DNA of 64,000 nucleotides from Elusimicrobium minutum (GTDB lineage Bacteria; Elusimicrobiota; Elusimicrobia; Elusimicrobiales; UBA9959): positions 1 through 64,000 of the forward strand of contig DYIF01000011.1 in NCBI GenBank assembly GCA_020723765.1, in the 5' to 3' direction. The notes beneath the pieces were generated by a model that saw only the letters and a program-made list of their open reading frames with translations, searched no databases and was not told where the DNA came from. The translations under genes and the position numbers were made by a program. This document shows positions 5,700 through 35,274 of this stretch, piece after piece (within the stretch, counting starts at the first letter, position 1; every line of letters begins with the position of its first letter).

Positions 5700-7787
5700 A
5701 TGTTTAAGTTTTTTTTGTTTTTTGTTTTCGCGTTTTGTTCGAATTTCTTAAAAGGAGAAGATATGAAACCGCCTAAAGCTAAAAAAATGGAATATATTAT
5801 CGAAAAACATAACGATAAAAGAATAGATTATTATTACTGGCTTAAAGAAAGAGACTCGAAAGATGTTTTAGATTACTTAAAAAAAGAAAACGAATACGCC
5901 GAATATGTCTTGAAAGACTCTCAAAAAACGAGAAATAAAATTTATAAAGAACTTAGAAGCAAAATAAAAGAATCTTATTCCACAGCTTTGACAAAATATA
6001 AAGATTATTTCTATTACGCCGAGTATTTAAAGGGAAAAGAGCACCCCGTTTATTACCGGAAAAACGTTAAAAGCGGTAAAACCGAAAAAATTCTGGATGT
6101 TAATTTTATAGCTAGAAAAAAAGAGTTTTGTCACGTCACTTCTTTAAAAGTAAGCCCGGATCAAAATCTTTTGGCCTATGCCGCCGATTTTGTCGGAAGA
6201 AGGTTTTATACTATCTATTTAAAAGATTTAAAAACCGGAAAAACGATGGAAGAAAAAATAGAGAACGTGACTCATAATTTCGTCTGGGGAGCCGATTCGA
6301 AAACTATTTATTACGTTAAACAGGACTTGGAAACACTGAGATGGGACAGTTTGTTTTCTTACGAGATAGGGAACAAAAACGCTAAGGAGATATACCGGGA
6401 AAAAGACGAGACTTTTTCCGTTGAAATTTCGAAATCCAACACAGAAAGATATTTGTTTTTAAATATAGCCTCGACCCTGCATAACGAAGTTAGATATTTA
6501 GATTTGTTCCAAAAAGAAGTGGAATTTAAGATTTTTAAACCGAGAGAAACCGAATTGGAATATTCGGTGGAGGACGGAGAATATGTTTTTTATGTATTAC
6601 ACAACAAAAACGCGAAGAATTTCAAGTTGTCTTATGTGGCCAAGAATTTAGATTTTTCCAAAATTGAAAATTGGAAAGATCTGATAGGACATAAAGACGA
6701 TGTTTTGATTGAAAATTTCGAGGTATTTAAAAATAGATTGGTTGTACAGGAGAGAAAAAACGGAGTCGTGATGTTTAAGGTTTTAAATAGAGATAACGGG
6801 GATATTAAATATATAGATTTTAAAGACGAAGCTTACTCGGCGTCGTTCGGCGAAAATCTGGAATATGAAACCGATTATTTTAGGTACTACTACGAATCTA
6901 TGGTTATCCCTCCCACCGTATACGATTATTCTTTTAAAACGGGAGATTCTTTGTTGGTAAAACGAAAAGAGGTCCCCAATTACGACCCTTCTTTATACGA
7001 AACGAAAAGGTTGTGGGTGGATTCGAGAGACGGGACGAAAATTCCCGTAAGCGTAGTTTATAAGAAAGATAAAAAAGATAAGGTTTACGTTTACGGTTAC
7101 GGTTCTTACGGCTATCCTTTAGACGCGGATTTTAATTCCTCAATCTTTCCTCTGGTCGACAGAGGATTTGTTTATGCCGTAGCGCATGTAAGAGGCGGAA
7201 GCGAGTTGGGAAGGAAATGGTATGAGGACGGAAGGCAACTTAAGAAAAAAAATACTTTTTACGATTTTATAGACGTATCGGAAAGTTTAAAAAAAACGTA
7301 CTCTACAACAGGTATCGTTGTCGCGGAAGGGGGTTCGGCCGGAGGGCTTTTAATGGGGGCGATAGCCAATATGAGCGAAGATTTATATACCGCCATAATA
7401 GCGGAGGTTCCTTTTGTGGATTGCCTTACTACGATGCTCGACCCTACGATTCCTTTGACCACTTCCGAATATGACGAATGGGGCAATCCTGATATAAAAG
7501 AATACTACGATTATATAAAATCTTATTCCCCTTACGATAACGTTGAAAAAAAGTGCTATCCAAATATGCTGGTTACCTCGGGGTATTATGATTCTCAGGT
7601 TCAGTACTGGGAGCCGGCAAAATGGGTAGCAAAATTAAGGGAGTATAATACTTGCCGGGACAGGTTGATAATACTTAAAACCGATATGAGAAGCGGTCAC
7701 GGCGGAAAAACCGGAAGGTACGAGTATTTAAAAGAGTTGGCTTTTAAGTATTCCTTCGTATTAAAAGTTGCCGACATAAAAGATTAG
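5700..7787 (+). CDS. Prolyl oligopeptidase family serine peptidase (oligopeptidase B-like, S9A)
   Basis: A 695-residue protein with a short hydrophobic N-terminus (about 1-18) that could be a signal peptide, a beta-propeller region (about 60-410) and an alpha/beta-hydrolase domain (about 430-695). The catalytic triad is visible: Ser546 in GGSAGG, Asp631 in SGYYDSQV and His667 in SGHGG. RGGSELGRKWYEDGR is the hallmark of the oligopeptidase B/PtrB group. These enzymes cut short peptides after basic or proline residues. If exported, it would act in the periplasm on peptides made by the secreted proteases in this window, ahead of the POT importer. The start has AGAGG six bases before ATG. Confidence 0.92.
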   Translation: MFKFFLFFVFAFCSNFLKGEDMKPPKAKKMEYIIEKHNDKRIDYYYWLKERDSKDVLDYLKKENEYAEYVLKDSQKTRNKIYKELRSKIKESYSTALTKYKDYFYYAEYLKGKEHPVYYRKNVKSGKTEKILDVNFIARKKEFCHVTSLKVSPDQNLLAYAADFVGRRFYTIYLKDLKTGKTMEEKIENVTHNFVWGADSKTIYYVKQDLETLRWDSLFSYEIGNKNAKEIYREKDETFSVEISKSNTERYLFLNIASTLHNEVRYLDLFQKEVEFKIFKPRETELEYSVEDGEYVFYVLHNKNAKNFKLSYVAKNLDFSKIENWKDLIGHKDDVLIENFEVFKNRLVVQERKNGVVMFKVLNRDNGDIKYIDFKDEAYSASFGENLEYETDYFRYYYESMVIPPTVYDYSFKTGDSLLVKRKEVPNYDPSLYETKRLWVDSRDGTKIPVSVVYKKDKKDKVYVYGYGSYGYPLDADFNSSIFPLVDRGFVYAVAHVRGGSELGRKWYEDGRQLKKKNTFYDFIDVSESLKKTYSTTGIVVAEGGSAGGLLMGAIANMSEDLYTAIIAEVPFVDCLTTMLDPTIPLTTSEYDEWGNPDIKEYYDYIKSYSPYDNVEKKCYPNMLVTSGYYDSQVQYWEPAKWVAKLREYNTCRDRLIILKTDMRSGHGGKTGRYEYLKELAFKYSFVLKVADIKD

Positions 7788-25678: not shown

Positions 25679-26545
25679 TCAATAATCGAGTATAAGTGAG
25701 CTTGAACTTCCCGTTTTTACGGTGTTTTCTATCCAGTTTTTAACGGCGCTTACCTTTGAATAAATTCCATATTTCCCTTCTCTCGCGCATCCCTCACCCC
25801 AGCTAACCACACCGACAAGATACGCTTTTGAAGAGGTTTTGTATACCAAAGGACCGCCGCTATCTCCCTGACATGAGTCTTTCCCGCCGGTGGCGTAACC
25901 CGCGCATATCATTCTGTCGGTTATGGCGTTAGGATAAGCTTTTAAGCAGGTTGTTTTGGATACGAGCGGAAGAGTTACTTTTTGAAGCGTATTGGAGATG
26001 TCTCCGTTTTCTTTGGTAAGTCCCCACCCCGCTACCGTTAGATTGGTTCCGGCGTTTAATTCCAGCGTGTTTAATTCTATAATCGGAGCGGAGGATTGTC
26101 CGCTTAATTTGATTAAAGCGTAGTCGTAGTCCATTGTCTGGGAATTCCAGGAAGGATGTTTTATTATTTTAACCGGAGTAAATCTTTGACCGACGGTATC
26201 CGTGAGCTTGCTTATGCCCGTTACTATGTAAGAAGGAGTTATTCCGTCTACGCAGTGAGCCGCGGTTAAAACCCAATCCTTTGCTATTAATGAGCCTCCG
26301 CAGAAATGGCCGTAGTAAGAATGTTGTAAGGAAACTATGAAAGGAAATTCCGAGTTTGTCGTTGTCACTCCGCCGACTATTTTCGAAACCTTTTCTTCGG
26401 TTCCTATGGCCGGTTGAACGTTGGGAAGTTGCAATTGAGGTATGTTTAATTTGGATTGGTTGTCAAAATCTATATTTTGAGAACTTAAATATAAACCGTT
26501 TGCTATCGTTAACAGTAACATTATTATCTTTTTTATGTTATTCAT
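25679..26545 (-). CDS. Secreted trypsin-like serine protease (S1A)
   Basis: A 288-residue protein with a signal peptide (about 1-22), a 30-residue propeptide rich in Q, L and P, and a complete chymotrypsin-fold domain starting at IVGG (activation site, after SK). The triad is visible: His in LTAAHC, Asp in DYDYALIKL, Ser in CQGDSGGPL. The residue six before the catalytic Ser is Asp (DSCQGDSGGP; Asp189 in chymotrypsin numbering), and SWGEGC and KYGIYSKV supply Gly216 and Gly226, so trypsin specificity for Lys/Arg is expected. Cysteines fit at least three disulfides. AAGGAGGAG precedes ATG. Its promoter carries a palindrome shared with the protease gene at 33.2 kb. Confidence 0.95.
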   Translation of the reverse strand: MNNIKKIIMLLLTIANGLYLSSQNIDFDNQSKLNIPQLQLPNVQPAIGTEEKVSKIVGGVTTTNSEFPFIVSLQHSYYGHFCGGSLIAKDWVLTAAHCVDGITPSYIVTGISKLTDTVGQRFTPVKIIKHPSWNSQTMDYDYALIKLSGQSSAPIIELNTLELNAGTNLTVAGWGLTKENGDISNTLQKVTLPLVSKTTCLKAYPNAITDRMICAGYATGGKDSCQGDSGGPLVYKTSSKAYLVGVVSWGEGCAREGKYGIYSKVSAVKNWIENTVKTGSSSSLILDY

Positions 26546-26561: not shown

Positions 26562-26627
26562 ATTATAAAGATATTTGAGCTATTTTCAATTACGATTTGC
26601 CTAATTCGAATTAGGACTTATGTCCTA
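26562..26627 (-). promoter_or_regulatory. Trypsin-gene promoter with upstream palindromic operator
   Basis: On the minus strand: palindrome TAGGAC-TTAT-GTCCTA (plus 26612-26627; the symmetry extends to ATTAGGAC...GTCCTAAT), -35 TTGAAA (26584-26589), 16-base spacer, -10 TATAAT (26562-26567). The operator centre is 74.5 bases from ATG and about 64 from the predicted start of transcription, the usual place for a class I activator. A second, overlapping palindrome CTAATTCGAATTAG lies at 26601-26614. The operator overlaps the last codons of the upstream radical SAM gene. Confidence 0.7.
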
Positions 26628-30450: not shown

Positions 30451-31680
30451 TTAAATAATCTTTAAAAGCTCTTTTATAAGATTGTCTTTTTCTTTTTTGG
30501 ATTGTTCTCCGGTTGAAAGGTCTTTAATCGTAACCGTATTGGAAATAAATTCCTCTTCTCCTATTATTAAAGCGTATCTCGCGCCGTTTGAGTTTGCGCT
30601 TCTCATTTGAGATTTTAAACTTTGGTGAAAGCTTGAAAAATCCGACTTGATTCCGCTATTTCTGAGGCTTGATAGCAACTCGAAAGCGTATTCGGAATAT
30701 TTTTGGTCGGCGGTTATTACGAAACATAAAGGCTTATTTTTAAAAGATATGTTTTCTTTTTCGCATAGCATTAAAATTCTTTCCGCTCCCATAGCCCAGC
30801 CGACGCTCGGCGAATTTGGACCTCCCATGGATTTTATAAGATCGTCGTATCTTCCTCCGGCCGCTATGGCATCCTGGGAACCTAACTCAGCGGTTTTAAA
30901 CTCGAAAACCGTTCTTGTATAATAATCAAGTCCTCTTACCAGAAGTTTGTTTTCTTTATAATCTACGTTAGATTTGGTAAGCAATTCTTTCAAAGTTTTA
31001 TGGTGATCCTGGCAGTTTCCGCATAGATGTATGGAAGGGATGGATGAAAATTTTTCTTTGTCGATTTTGCAGTCCAGAACTCTCAACGGATTTCTCTCTA
31101 TTCTTTGTTTGCATAAATCACACAATTCAAGCTTCTTTAAGTTTTCTATTAATACTTCTCTGTATTTTTTTCTGCATTCAAAGCAGCCTATGGAGTTTAT
31201 TTCTATTTGATAAGATTTGATCCCTATTTTTTTAAGTATCGTATCCAGCATTATTATAACCTCAGCGTCCGAAAAAGCGGAGTTCGTTCCTATGTATTCC
31301 ACCCCTATTTGCTCAAATTCCCTAAACCTTCCCGCCTGAGGCCGTTCCGCCCTGAACATGTTGCCGATATAGAAATATTTTGTATTTTCTCCCTTTATGT
31401 TAAGGTTGTTGTTTATATAAGCTCTTGCTACCCCGGGAGTTCCTTCGGGCCTTAAAGCTAAAATTCTTTTTGATGCGTCTTCAAATTTATACATTTCTTT
31501 TTCTACTATGTCCGTCGTTTCTCCGGTGGATTTTATGAATAATTCTTGATATTCTACCGTCGGTATTCTTATTTCCTTATAATTGAAAATTTCAAAAACC
31601 TCTCTCGATATCCTTTCTATCTCCGAAATTTTGAAAGACTCTGGATATATTATATCTTTAAATCCTCTTACGGTATTCAT
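30451..31680 (-). CDS. hisS: Histidyl-tRNA synthetase
   Basis: A 409-residue class II synthetase when started at the ATG at 31680 (MNTVRGFKDI), which matches the family N-terminus; the frame is open for 23 more codons upstream, inside the preceding gene. Motif 1 lies near residues 50-60, LALRPEGTPGVAR and FRAERPQAGRFREFEQIG (motif 2) follow, and the histidine-specific LVRGLDYYTRTVFEF lies near 248. The C-terminal anticodon-binding domain is complete. It charges tRNA-His. The start codon overlaps the stop of the Crp/Fnr gene (TAATG), so the two are translationally coupled. Confidence 0.97.
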   Translation of the reverse strand: MNTVRGFKDIIYPESFKISEIERISREVFEIFNYKEIRIPTVEYQELFIKSTGETTDIVEKEMYKFEDASKRILALRPEGTPGVARAYINNNLNIKGENTKYFYIGNMFRAERPQAGRFREFEQIGVEYIGTNSAFSDAEVIIMLDTILKKIGIKSYQIEINSIGCFECRKKYREVLIENLKKLELCDLCKQRIERNPLRVLDCKIDKEKFSSIPSIHLCGNCQDHHKTLKELLTKSNVDYKENKLLVRGLDYYTRTVFEFKTAELGSQDAIAAGGRYDDLIKSMGGPNSPSVGWAMGAERILMLCEKENISFKNKPLCFVITADQKYSEYAFELLSSLRNSGIKSDFSSFHQSLKSQMRSANSNGARYALIIGEEEFISNTVTIKDLSTGEQSKKEKDNLIKELLKII

Positions 31681-32342
31681 TATCTCATTCCTTCGACTAT
31701 CTTTTTTATTTTTTCCGGCTTTAATATGCAAATCATTTCTCTTTTGCATTCTATTATACCTTTGTTTTTTAAGTGAGAAATTATCCTGTTTACCGGAACT
31801 CTCGTAGTACCTATATTTTTGGCTATTTCCTGCTGGCTTATTTTTATTTTCTCGTTTTTTTCTTGAATATATCTTTCGTATATGAACTTTGTCACTCTTC
31901 CGAACATGTTATGAAATATAAGATTTTCTATTTCCTCATCCGCTCTTTTCAATCTTTCGGCCATTATGTATAGCATTTTAATCATAAAATCTTTATGTTT
32001 AAACAAAAAATTTTGAAACTCGTTTGCGCTTATTACATATAACTCCGAGTCTTTTTCGCATACGGCGGAGGCAGTTCTATATTTCACACCCAAAAGCGCG
32101 AGTTCTCCGAAGAAATTTTTTTCCCCTATTAAAGATAAAATCTTGTTTTTTCTTCCTATACTCGTAAATATCTTTACTTCTCCGCTTTTAACTATGAAAA
32201 AAGTTTTGCCTATTTCGTTTTTATTAAAAATTATATCTCCTTTTTTGTATTTTTTTATTTTACCTATCTTTTGAAGTTTTTTAATGTCCGAATCGGATAG
32301 TTTATTGAATAGTTCTATGTTTTTAAAAACCTTGGAAATCAT
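31680..32342 (-). CDS. Crp/Fnr family transcriptional regulator
   Basis: A 220-residue protein from the ATG at 32342, chosen because AAGGAG is eight bases upstream and MISKVFKNIELF is a typical family start. The cyclic-nucleotide-binding-like domain (about 10-120) has KKGDIIFNKNEIGKTFFIVKSGEVKIF. A dimer helix follows. The C-terminal winged helix (about 150-215) has QQEIAKNIGTTRVPVNRIISHLK. The recognition helix reads TTRVPVNR, in which the Glu used by CRP and FNR to read TGA is Val, so the DNA target should differ from TGTGA and TTGAT. There are no N-terminal FNR-type cysteines, so it is probably not an oxygen-sensing Fe-S protein. It heads the hisS-aspS-lipA operon and lies between two proteases that share an AGGAC-N4-GTCCT palindrome. 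Confidence 0.9.
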   Translation of the reverse strand: MISKVFKNIELFNKLSDSDIKKLQKIGKIKKYKKGDIIFNKNEIGKTFFIVKSGEVKIFTSIGRKNKILSLIGEKNFFGELALLGVKYRTASAVCEKDSELYVISANEFQNFLFKHKDFMIKMLYIMAERLKRADEEIENLIFHNMFGRVTKFIYERYIQEKNEKIKISQQEIAKNIGTTRVPVNRIISHLKNKGIIECKREMICILKPEKIKKIVEGMR

Positions 32343-32403
32343 ATCGTTTTCTCCTTGAGATAAAAACATAGCAAACTCCATAATCAAAGATAAATCGCCG
32401 AAT

Positions 32404-33223: not shown

Positions 33224-34234
33224 TTATCTGTCGAAACTGAAGTTTAGGGCTTTAGAGGTGTCGAAAGAATCAAAATTGGTTTCGACTCTTACGCTTTTTA
33301 CAGCGCTTTGAGTTCTAATTTCCGGAACTATTCCCGAGAGATATTTATATAATACCGATATTTTTGTAACATCCTCTCCCCTTCCTCCGTTATTATCTAC
33401 TCTGTTGGATATAGTACATCCTGCCGGGGATTGAACAAAATCATTGTCCCCTCTTACCAGTATTCCCTCTATAAGTTTAGTTTGCTGGTTAAATACCGGA
33501 GATCCCGAGTTTCCTCCATAGGTATCCAGATTGGCTACGAAGTAGCCGTTCGGAGAAGGATCTCTTACCACGGCCCCGTCCGCTGATTTAACCGGAAGTC
33601 CGACCGGGTATCCTATTACAAACATCTGCTGACCGGCGGATAACTTCTGGTTCGTGTTTATTTTTAAAATTTTCTTGTTTGTAACTTTTCTGTCCAATTT
33701 GACTATCGCGTAGTCCGGTCCCAATCCGGTTCCCTGAGGGTTATCCGGCGTAGGTTCAGGGCCTACATTTGTTTTTACTATGTTTTTGCATTGGTATACT
33801 TCGGAAGAATCGAACTCGGTCTGAGGGGTATTCGGGTTATTTCTGTTTTTTACCGCATATCCGAACACGAAATAAGTCGAATCGCATTTTGATTGATTGG
33901 TTATGCAGTGTCCCGCGGTAATTACGGTATCTTCTGATATCAAAGCTCCGGAACAAAAAGCCCCTATGGTTTGTTCCCTGAAAGGTTCGTCTTCGCATAA
34001 ATTTAATCTATCACCGAATTTCATTGTGGTCAAAACGTATTTGTTTTTGGAGGAGTCGAATCTTACGTTTGACTTATCCCATAAAGAAACAACCGAGTTG
34101 GCTAATTCTTTTATGTCGGTTGTCATTTGAAAGTAATCTTTTCTGTTGTCGTCTCCGTATATTACTTTATTTGCGGAGAATAAGTTTGCGACTAAGGTTA
34201 TCGCCGCGACGAAGATTAAGGTGGTGTTCTTCAT
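33224..34234 (-). CDS. Secreted chymotrypsin-fold serine protease
   Basis: A 336-residue protein with a signal peptide (about 1-21), a pro-region (about 22-85) and a protease domain. The triad is visible: His in ITAGHCITN near 118, Asp in DYAIVKLDR near 178, and Ser in GGNSGSPVF near 243. GNSGSP instead of GDSGGP places it with bacterial glutamyl-endopeptidase/V8-like S1 enzymes rather than the trypsin group. Several cysteine pairs suggest disulfides. It is expected outside the cytoplasm. CAGGAGG lies six bases before ATG. The promoter region carries the same palindrome, at the same distance, as the trypsin gene at 25.7 kb. Confidence 0.93.
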   Translation of the reverse strand: MKNTTLIFVAAITLVANLFSANKVIYGDDNRKDYFQMTTDIKELANSVVSLWDKSNVRFDSSKNKYVLTTMKFGDRLNLCEDEPFREQTIGAFCSGALISEDTVITAGHCITNQSKCDSTYFVFGYAVKNRNNPNTPQTEFDSSEVYQCKNIVKTNVGPEPTPDNPQGTGLGPDYAIVKLDRKVTNKKILKINTNQKLSAGQQMFVIGYPVGLPVKSADGAVVRDPSPNGYFVANLDTYGGNSGSPVFNQQTKLIEGILVRGDNDFVQSPAGCTISNRVDNNGGRGEDVTKISVLYKYLSGIVPEIRTQSAVKSVRVETNFDSFDTSKALNFSFDR

Positions 34235-34250: not shown

Positions 34251-34317
34251 AGTTTAACGCTATCTTGATTAAAGTCAAATATTTTTGGTCCTATTTGAGT
34301 ATAGGACTAAAGTCCTA
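34251..34317 (-). promoter_or_regulatory. Protease promoter with palindromic operator and extra half-site
   Basis: On the minus strand: palindrome TAGGAC-TAAA-GTCCTA (plus 34302-34317), an additional half-site GTCCTAT at 34289-34295, -35 TTGACT (34273-34278), 16-base spacer, -10 TAAACT (34251-34256). The operator centre is 75.5 bases from ATG and about 65 from the predicted transcription start. The layout matches the 26.6-kb promoter to within one base. Confidence 0.7.
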
Positions 34318-35274
34318 TTAAAATGCGGTAAAGGTTTTTACCGTAAATTTGTCTATAAGGTTAATGGATAATATGGATATGAGTATTACGGATACGATAA
34401 TTATCAGATAGAAATATTTTTTAGTTTCTTTAAATATCGGGGTTTGGGTATCTTCTTCCCAGGATATCCCTTTCTTGAAATAACTTAAAAGATTATAGAA
34501 TGAATAGCATTCGAGGGCAAAGAAGACAAATCCGATATAGCCGTATACCGGCATTTCAAATAGCTTCGGTTCGTTTAAAAAAGGAAGATGATAAACCCAT
34601 TTGGCGCCGGATTTGAAATTCCAAAACTCCCATAACAGGCCGCAGATTAAACCGGCTAAGGATATGTTTAAAACCTTTTCCATATTTCCGCCGGATATCT
34701 CTCTTATGAAAGACCTTGTCCCCAATTTCAGATTAAGAGGTTCGGTTATTAATAACGGGAAAAACCATATGAATGGAAATAAATATTTGGGTATTATTAA
34801 AACGAATAATGTCGATAATATACCCGCCCATATAATATTATCAAATTTAATTGGATTTGTTTTGAAATTTTTTGTTTTTATTTTTTTAAATATGCCTATA
34901 GTTTCTATCAATTCGGATGTCTCGAATATCGCAGGTAAAACCGTGGCGTATGCGAAAATATATCCGAAGTATCTTAAAGAGTTGTCGTAAGGCAACATTA
35001 CATAAGACCAGTTTTTTAAAAATATATTGAATATTTCGAATAAAAACCACCATCCGAAAGAAACGAATAGCATATAAAAAAATTCGGATGTTCTTGAAAT
35101 TATAAGCGAATTTCTTTTAATTGAGTATATGATACCATCGACTATAAATATGTAAGAATACCACGTGAATATGTAATATAGACGATAAAAAGGATCTATT
35201 TCGAAAGAAGCGAAAAAAGAGGATACAAAATAAACTATGAATCCCACTGATATGAAAATGATATTAACGCTCAT
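34318..35274 (-). CDS. Polytopic membrane protein of unknown function
   Basis: A 318-residue protein with about eight to nine hydrophobic segments spread over its length and short polar loops. Aromatic-rich motifs occur, such as LLWEFWNFKSGAKW near 238 and FFALECYSFYNLL near 275. I recognise no family. It is the last gene of the thiSGHFE run and overlaps the methyltransferase by four bases (ATGA), so it is co-transcribed with thiamine synthesis. A link to thiamine is possible only by position. Confidence 0.75.
   Translation of the reverse strand: MSVNIIFISVGFIVYFVSSFFASFEIDPFYRLYYIFTWYSYIFIVDGIIYSIKRNSLIISRTSEFFYMLFVSFGWWFLFEIFNIFLKNWSYVMLPYDNSLRYFGYIFAYATVLPAIFETSELIETIGIFKKIKTKNFKTNPIKFDNIIWAGILSTLFVLIIPKYLFPFIWFFPLLITEPLNLKLGTRSFIREISGGNMEKVLNISLAGLICGLLWEFWNFKSGAKWVYHLPFLNEPKLFEMPVYGYIGFVFFALECYSFYNLLSYFKKGISWEEDTQTPIFKETKKYFYLIIIVSVILISILSINLIDKFTVKTFTAF

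Follow-up and report, generated by a model that had tools for sequence, protein, structure and literature searches.

The locus raises two questions: why two genes for secreted serine proteases should share the same palindrome upstream of their promoters, and which protein would read it. Direct inspection of the window (the whole stretch of 64,000 nucleotides analysed here) bore out the description given in an earlier note: TAGGAC-N4-GTCCTA occurs twice, both copies being perfect and at the coordinates claimed, with centres 74.5 and 75.5 bases upstream of the ATG start codons of the trypsin and V8-like genes, respectively, and with 16-base spacers between the -35 and -10 hexamers. The claim that the window holds no further copy was also correct, as zero other matches were found when as many as 2 mismatches were tolerated; with a limit of 3, the 12 matches obtained, versus 15.2 expected, are background, from which the two perfect copies alone stand out. 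Both downstream genes are, as proposed, predicted to encode secreted serine proteases, on the basis of their Pfam matches (Trypsin and Trypsin_2) and signal-peptide-like N-termini. The relevant features are as follows:

26612..26627, minus strand: trypsin promoter, distal (primary) box, centred at about -66; in gene orientation it reads TAGGACATAAGTCCTA
26588..26603, minus strand: trypsin promoter, putative proximal (secondary) box; its half-site, TAGGC, is weak alone and follows the distal box 24 bases downstream
26562..26589, minus strand: predicted -35 TTGAAA and -10 TATAAT of the trypsin gene, 16-base spacer
25679..26545, minus strand: trypsin-family protease of 288 aa, predicted to be exported, Pfam Trypsin E 5e-66, signal-peptide-like N-terminus
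31680..32387, minus strand: Crp/Fnr-family regulator of 235 aa, encoded between the trypsin and V8-like genes; a candidate for reading the Fnr-like palindrome
34302..34317, minus strand: V8-like protease promoter, distal (primary) box; in gene orientation it reads TAGGACTTTAGTCCTA
34278..34293, minus strand: V8-like promoter, putative proximal (secondary) box; its half-site, TAGGAC, follows the distal box 24 bases downstream, and the box abuts the -35
34265..34278, minus strand: Fnr-like palindrome TTGACTTTAATCAA of the V8-like promoter, enclosing the -35 hexamer
34251..34278, minus strand: predicted -35 TTGACT and -10 TAAACT of the V8-like gene, 16-base spacer
33224..34234, minus strand: V8-like serine protease of 336 aa, predicted to be exported, Pfam Trypsin_2 E 1e-15, signal-peptide-like N-terminus

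Two of these elements were absent from the earlier note: the half-site that each promoter has exactly 24 bases inward of its distal box (TAGGC for trypsin, TAGGAC for the V8-like gene), and the Fnr-like palindrome over the V8 -35. A chance origin of the two TAGGAC palindromes can be ruled out, given that base composition predicts only 0.0023 perfect copies per window (0.076 per 2.1-Mb genome) and given the genome-wide excess and class-wide conservation described below.

The closest regulator homologs that carry a name come from Elusimicrobia metagenome bins, which places the window in an uncultured Elusimicrobiota bacterium. Scans of the whole genome (2.1 Mb, 32 contigs), run against a reversed-motif control, identified 6 sites with a relaxed pattern versus 1 for the control, to which a mismatch scan added 2 sites with one or two mismatches. 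Matches with 3 mismatches were at control level (26 versus 30), and two of them (L044 and L045) were retained post hoc on their promoter geometry and exported product; a gapped pattern performed no better than its control in this genome. The sixth relaxed site (L006) was left out of the regulon because of its ill-fitting promoter geometry and because the radical-SAM-like protein next to it lacks a signal peptide. Nine sites were thus kept. In eight of them the -35 is at +31 to +33 relative to the centre of the box, the sole exception being L039, whose -35 is not clear, and the start codon lies 74.5-83.5 bases from the centre in 8 of the 9 promoters. The distal boxes at 26611-26627, 34302-34320, L003, L004 and L005 overlap or directly follow the stop codon of the upstream gene. 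The nine products comprise the trypsin, the V8-like protease, two clostripains (C11), a PLD-like protein, an L,D-transpeptidase, an amylase and two proteins without a Pfam match. Using a simple hydrophobicity rule, rather than SignalP, export is predicted for 7/8 of the strong-site targets compared with 24% of the window genes (p 0.0003), and for 18/21 targets sampled across the class. The regulon excludes some exported enzymes, since no box was found at the secreted prolyl oligopeptidase (5700-7787) or at a second trypsin (L174, contig C21). On this evidence the operator and its regulon are real, and the idea that the shared operator would place secreted enzymes under joint control is well supported; what does not hold is the restriction to proteolysis made in the earlier note, as the targets include the amylase, the PLD-like protein and the L,D-transpeptidase and, in relatives, also nuclease and carboxypeptidase.

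The motif also recurs before protease genes of relatives. Within the family, GGnC-N4-GnCC is present no more than 180 bases upstream of 19 of the 30 trypsin-search matches, versus 3 for the reversed motif, and of 19 of the 30 V8-search matches, versus 1, the fifth base of the half-site drifting among relatives (TAGG[A/T/C]C). In the sister genome G001, the V8, Crp, hisS and trypsin genes are all on one contig. The targets in relatives are also predicted to be exported, and include clostripains (8/32), trypsins, PLD-like proteins, endonuclease I, amylases, a carboxypeptidase and a subtilase; the wider sample gave clostripain, PLD-like, ankyrin-repeat or unknown proteins. In these genomes the boxes are paired 24 bp apart, with the inner box abutting the -35: a second half-site occurs at +24 in 36 and at +23 in 17 of the 77 oriented records, and in 0-9 at the other offsets from 16 to 39, the records being not independent, as they contain orthologs and some promoters twice. 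Across the class the tandem pattern was found in 100 of 147 genomes, with a single match for the reversed control. In our own genome the V8 gene has a full second half-site and the trypsin gene TAGGC, while several other promoters show a weak trace. In the genus g15 (L251, L253 and L258), tandem boxes precede a recurrent protein of ~468 aa with a hydrophobic N-terminus, the first of which (L251) has no Pfam match.

Which protein, then, would read these boxes? The sole NarL-family response regulator of the genome is a protein of 217 aa (contig C32, 4921-5574), the other GerE match being a sigma-factor-like protein. All 79 readable orthologs of this regulator carry the phosphorylatable Asp and the helix KT[VI]KNH, which spans the DevR contacts K179, K182 and N183, and a REC-HisKA-HATPase kinase gene is directly upstream in 52 of the 75 loci with enough flank. 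Tandem boxes are present in 98 of the 124 genomes with an ortholog, versus 2 of the 23 without (ortholog cut-off of E 1e-60, chosen after the values had been seen), an association with a Fisher p of 1e-10, or 0.007 by family, in tests that ignore shared ancestry. The two box-bearing genomes without the regulator are incomplete assemblies (77% and 86%). In families f3 and f7 (3 genomes) and in much of the gut genus g15 the regulator is present and the strict tandem box was not found. Whole-sequence comparison puts the regulator nearer to VraR and DesR than to DevR, and by identity its HTH resembles DevR no more than it does VraR or DesR. General self-regulation was discarded, as just 5 of the 80 regulator loci have a box. 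Directly downstream of the regulator gene (L211:5840-7535) are two small proteins whose N-termini include a hydrophobic segment and which, judged by eye, resemble proteins of the pilus/TadE type. Among the possible readers of the boxes, a DevR-like two-component activator has the strongest support and is in our judgement quite probably the right one.

The comparison with characterised systems involves both similarities and divergences: (i) The TAGGAC box is of the DevR/DosR type, a palindromic GGNC-N4-GNCC with the consensus GGACTWWAGTCC, and this core is also that of the DosR consensus oligonucleotide used in vitro, TTGGGGACTAAAGTCCCTAA, in the same register (PMC5999986); the outer flank, by contrast, is TA here and GG there. 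(ii) The GGGCC/GGTCC variants and the TAGGCC forms of relatives match the Streptomyces OsdR box, AGGGCCGATCGGCCCT, and its listed targets (PMC5069765), and the half-site has a variable base in the Elusimicrobiota boxes as it does in OsdR. (iii) DevR binds paired sites cooperatively, the proximal one overlapping the -35, and activates from that layout (PMC3029386). The boxes described here resemble these sites in being paired and in having the proximal one at the -35, although it abuts this hexamer rather than fully overlapping it, and the distal box is the best preserved. (iv) The KTVKN contact residues and two-component control are common to DevR and our regulator. However, the kinase is of the REC-HisKA-HATPase type and the sensory part of DevS/DosT was not found in it by Pfam, and in most relatives the regulator gene, unlike devR, lacks a box. 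(v) The targets here are predicted exported hydrolases and not dormancy genes, and the Fnr-like palindrome over the -35 is a further difference from DevR/DosR. (vi) The ComA box of Bacillus subtilis, TTGCGG-N4-CCGCAA, is also served by a NarL-family regulator and has the same 6-4-6 geometry, whereas its half-site sequence differs.

The earlier note had instead related the palindrome to Crp/Fnr-family sites, which would make the TAGGAC box a divergent site of this type read by the Crp protein (31680-32387) or by another Crp/Fnr regulator. The 6-4-6 geometry is indeed that of TTGAT-N4-ATCAA, the Crp-family gene lies between both targets, 16 genomes of the family have it no further than about 11 kb from the V8 gene, and a second, Fnr-like regulator is encoded on contig C24 (L216, with an N-terminal C-x2-C-x5-C and a VETVVR recognition helix). 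However, the half-site of the strong boxes is TAGGAC and not of the TGTGA/TTGAT type, and core, register, tandem layout and regulator co-occurrence all favour the NarL/DevR type. Furthermore, the boxes are not confined to genomes encoding the candidate Crp regulator: the Crp protein is an unlikely reader because the genus g7 keeps 4 boxes in G007 and 6 in G017, two genomes (assemblies 89% and 86% complete) in which the window Crp protein has only partial cNMP-domain matches and no full-length homolog. A separate palindrome with canonical Fnr spacing and half-site is found in the same promoters, and we consider a Crp/Fnr identity of the TAGGAC box improbable. This other palindrome, TTGAY-N4-RTCAA (TTGA-N6-TCAA), encloses the -35 in many promoters of the regulon, with 24 exact records versus 0.1 in shuffles; TCA follows TTGA at exactly the palindrome gap in 30 of 58 words, and in at most 3 at any other gap. 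Our genome has it at the V8 and L004 genes but not at the trypsin gene, and either the Crp protein (31680-32387) or the Fnr-like protein of contig C24 could read it.

Even with a NarL-type regulator as the reader, binding might repress, so that the boxes would switch the secreted enzymes off, since the direction of control is unreadable from sequence. Nevertheless, box centres near -66 and -42, upstream of the -35, are typical activator positions, and DevR activates from such an arrangement (PMC3029386); we consider repression slightly less probable than a Crp/Fnr site. The contact with the upstream stop codon in five promoters of this genome also invites the idea that the palindromes are RNA hairpins, acting as terminators of the upstream genes, rather than protein-binding sites. 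This was rejected as highly improbable: no T-run was found after the palindrome, the bases themselves are conserved beyond what pairing alone would need, the downstream -35 lies at a fixed distance, and the half-site is repeated at +24.

We therefore return to the DevR-like activator. We propose that each of the two palindromes is the distal member of an operator pair recognised by a NarL/DevR-type response regulator, most likely the 217-aa protein of contig C32 under its adjacent REC-HisKA-HATPase kinase. In response to a signal, a phosphorylated dimer would occupy the distal box, whose centre is near -66, and would recruit a second dimer to the weaker box 24 bp downstream, near -42, abutting the -35 of a sigma-70-type promoter; the outcome would be activation of a regulon whose products are exported and in many cases hydrolases. 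A Crp/Fnr-type protein probably exerts additional control, through the -35 palindrome, at many of these promoters, that of the V8 gene included. We give roughly even chances to the complete scheme, that is, a class-wide regulon of exported enzymes in the Elusimicrobiota in which a DevR-like regulator acting from boxes at -66 and -42 is integrated with a Crp/Fnr protein at the -35 palindrome.

A literature search did not find a report of such a regulon in the Elusimicrobiota. For a phylum known mostly from metagenomes, these results provide a regulon at the sequence level, with a candidate regulator, its kinase and nine candidate target promoters named in this genome. They place a DevR-type box and its tandem promoter layout outside the Actinobacteria, tied to exported enzymes and not to dormancy, and the shared boxes can place unknown exported proteins (L003, L044 and others) in a secreted-enzyme programme.
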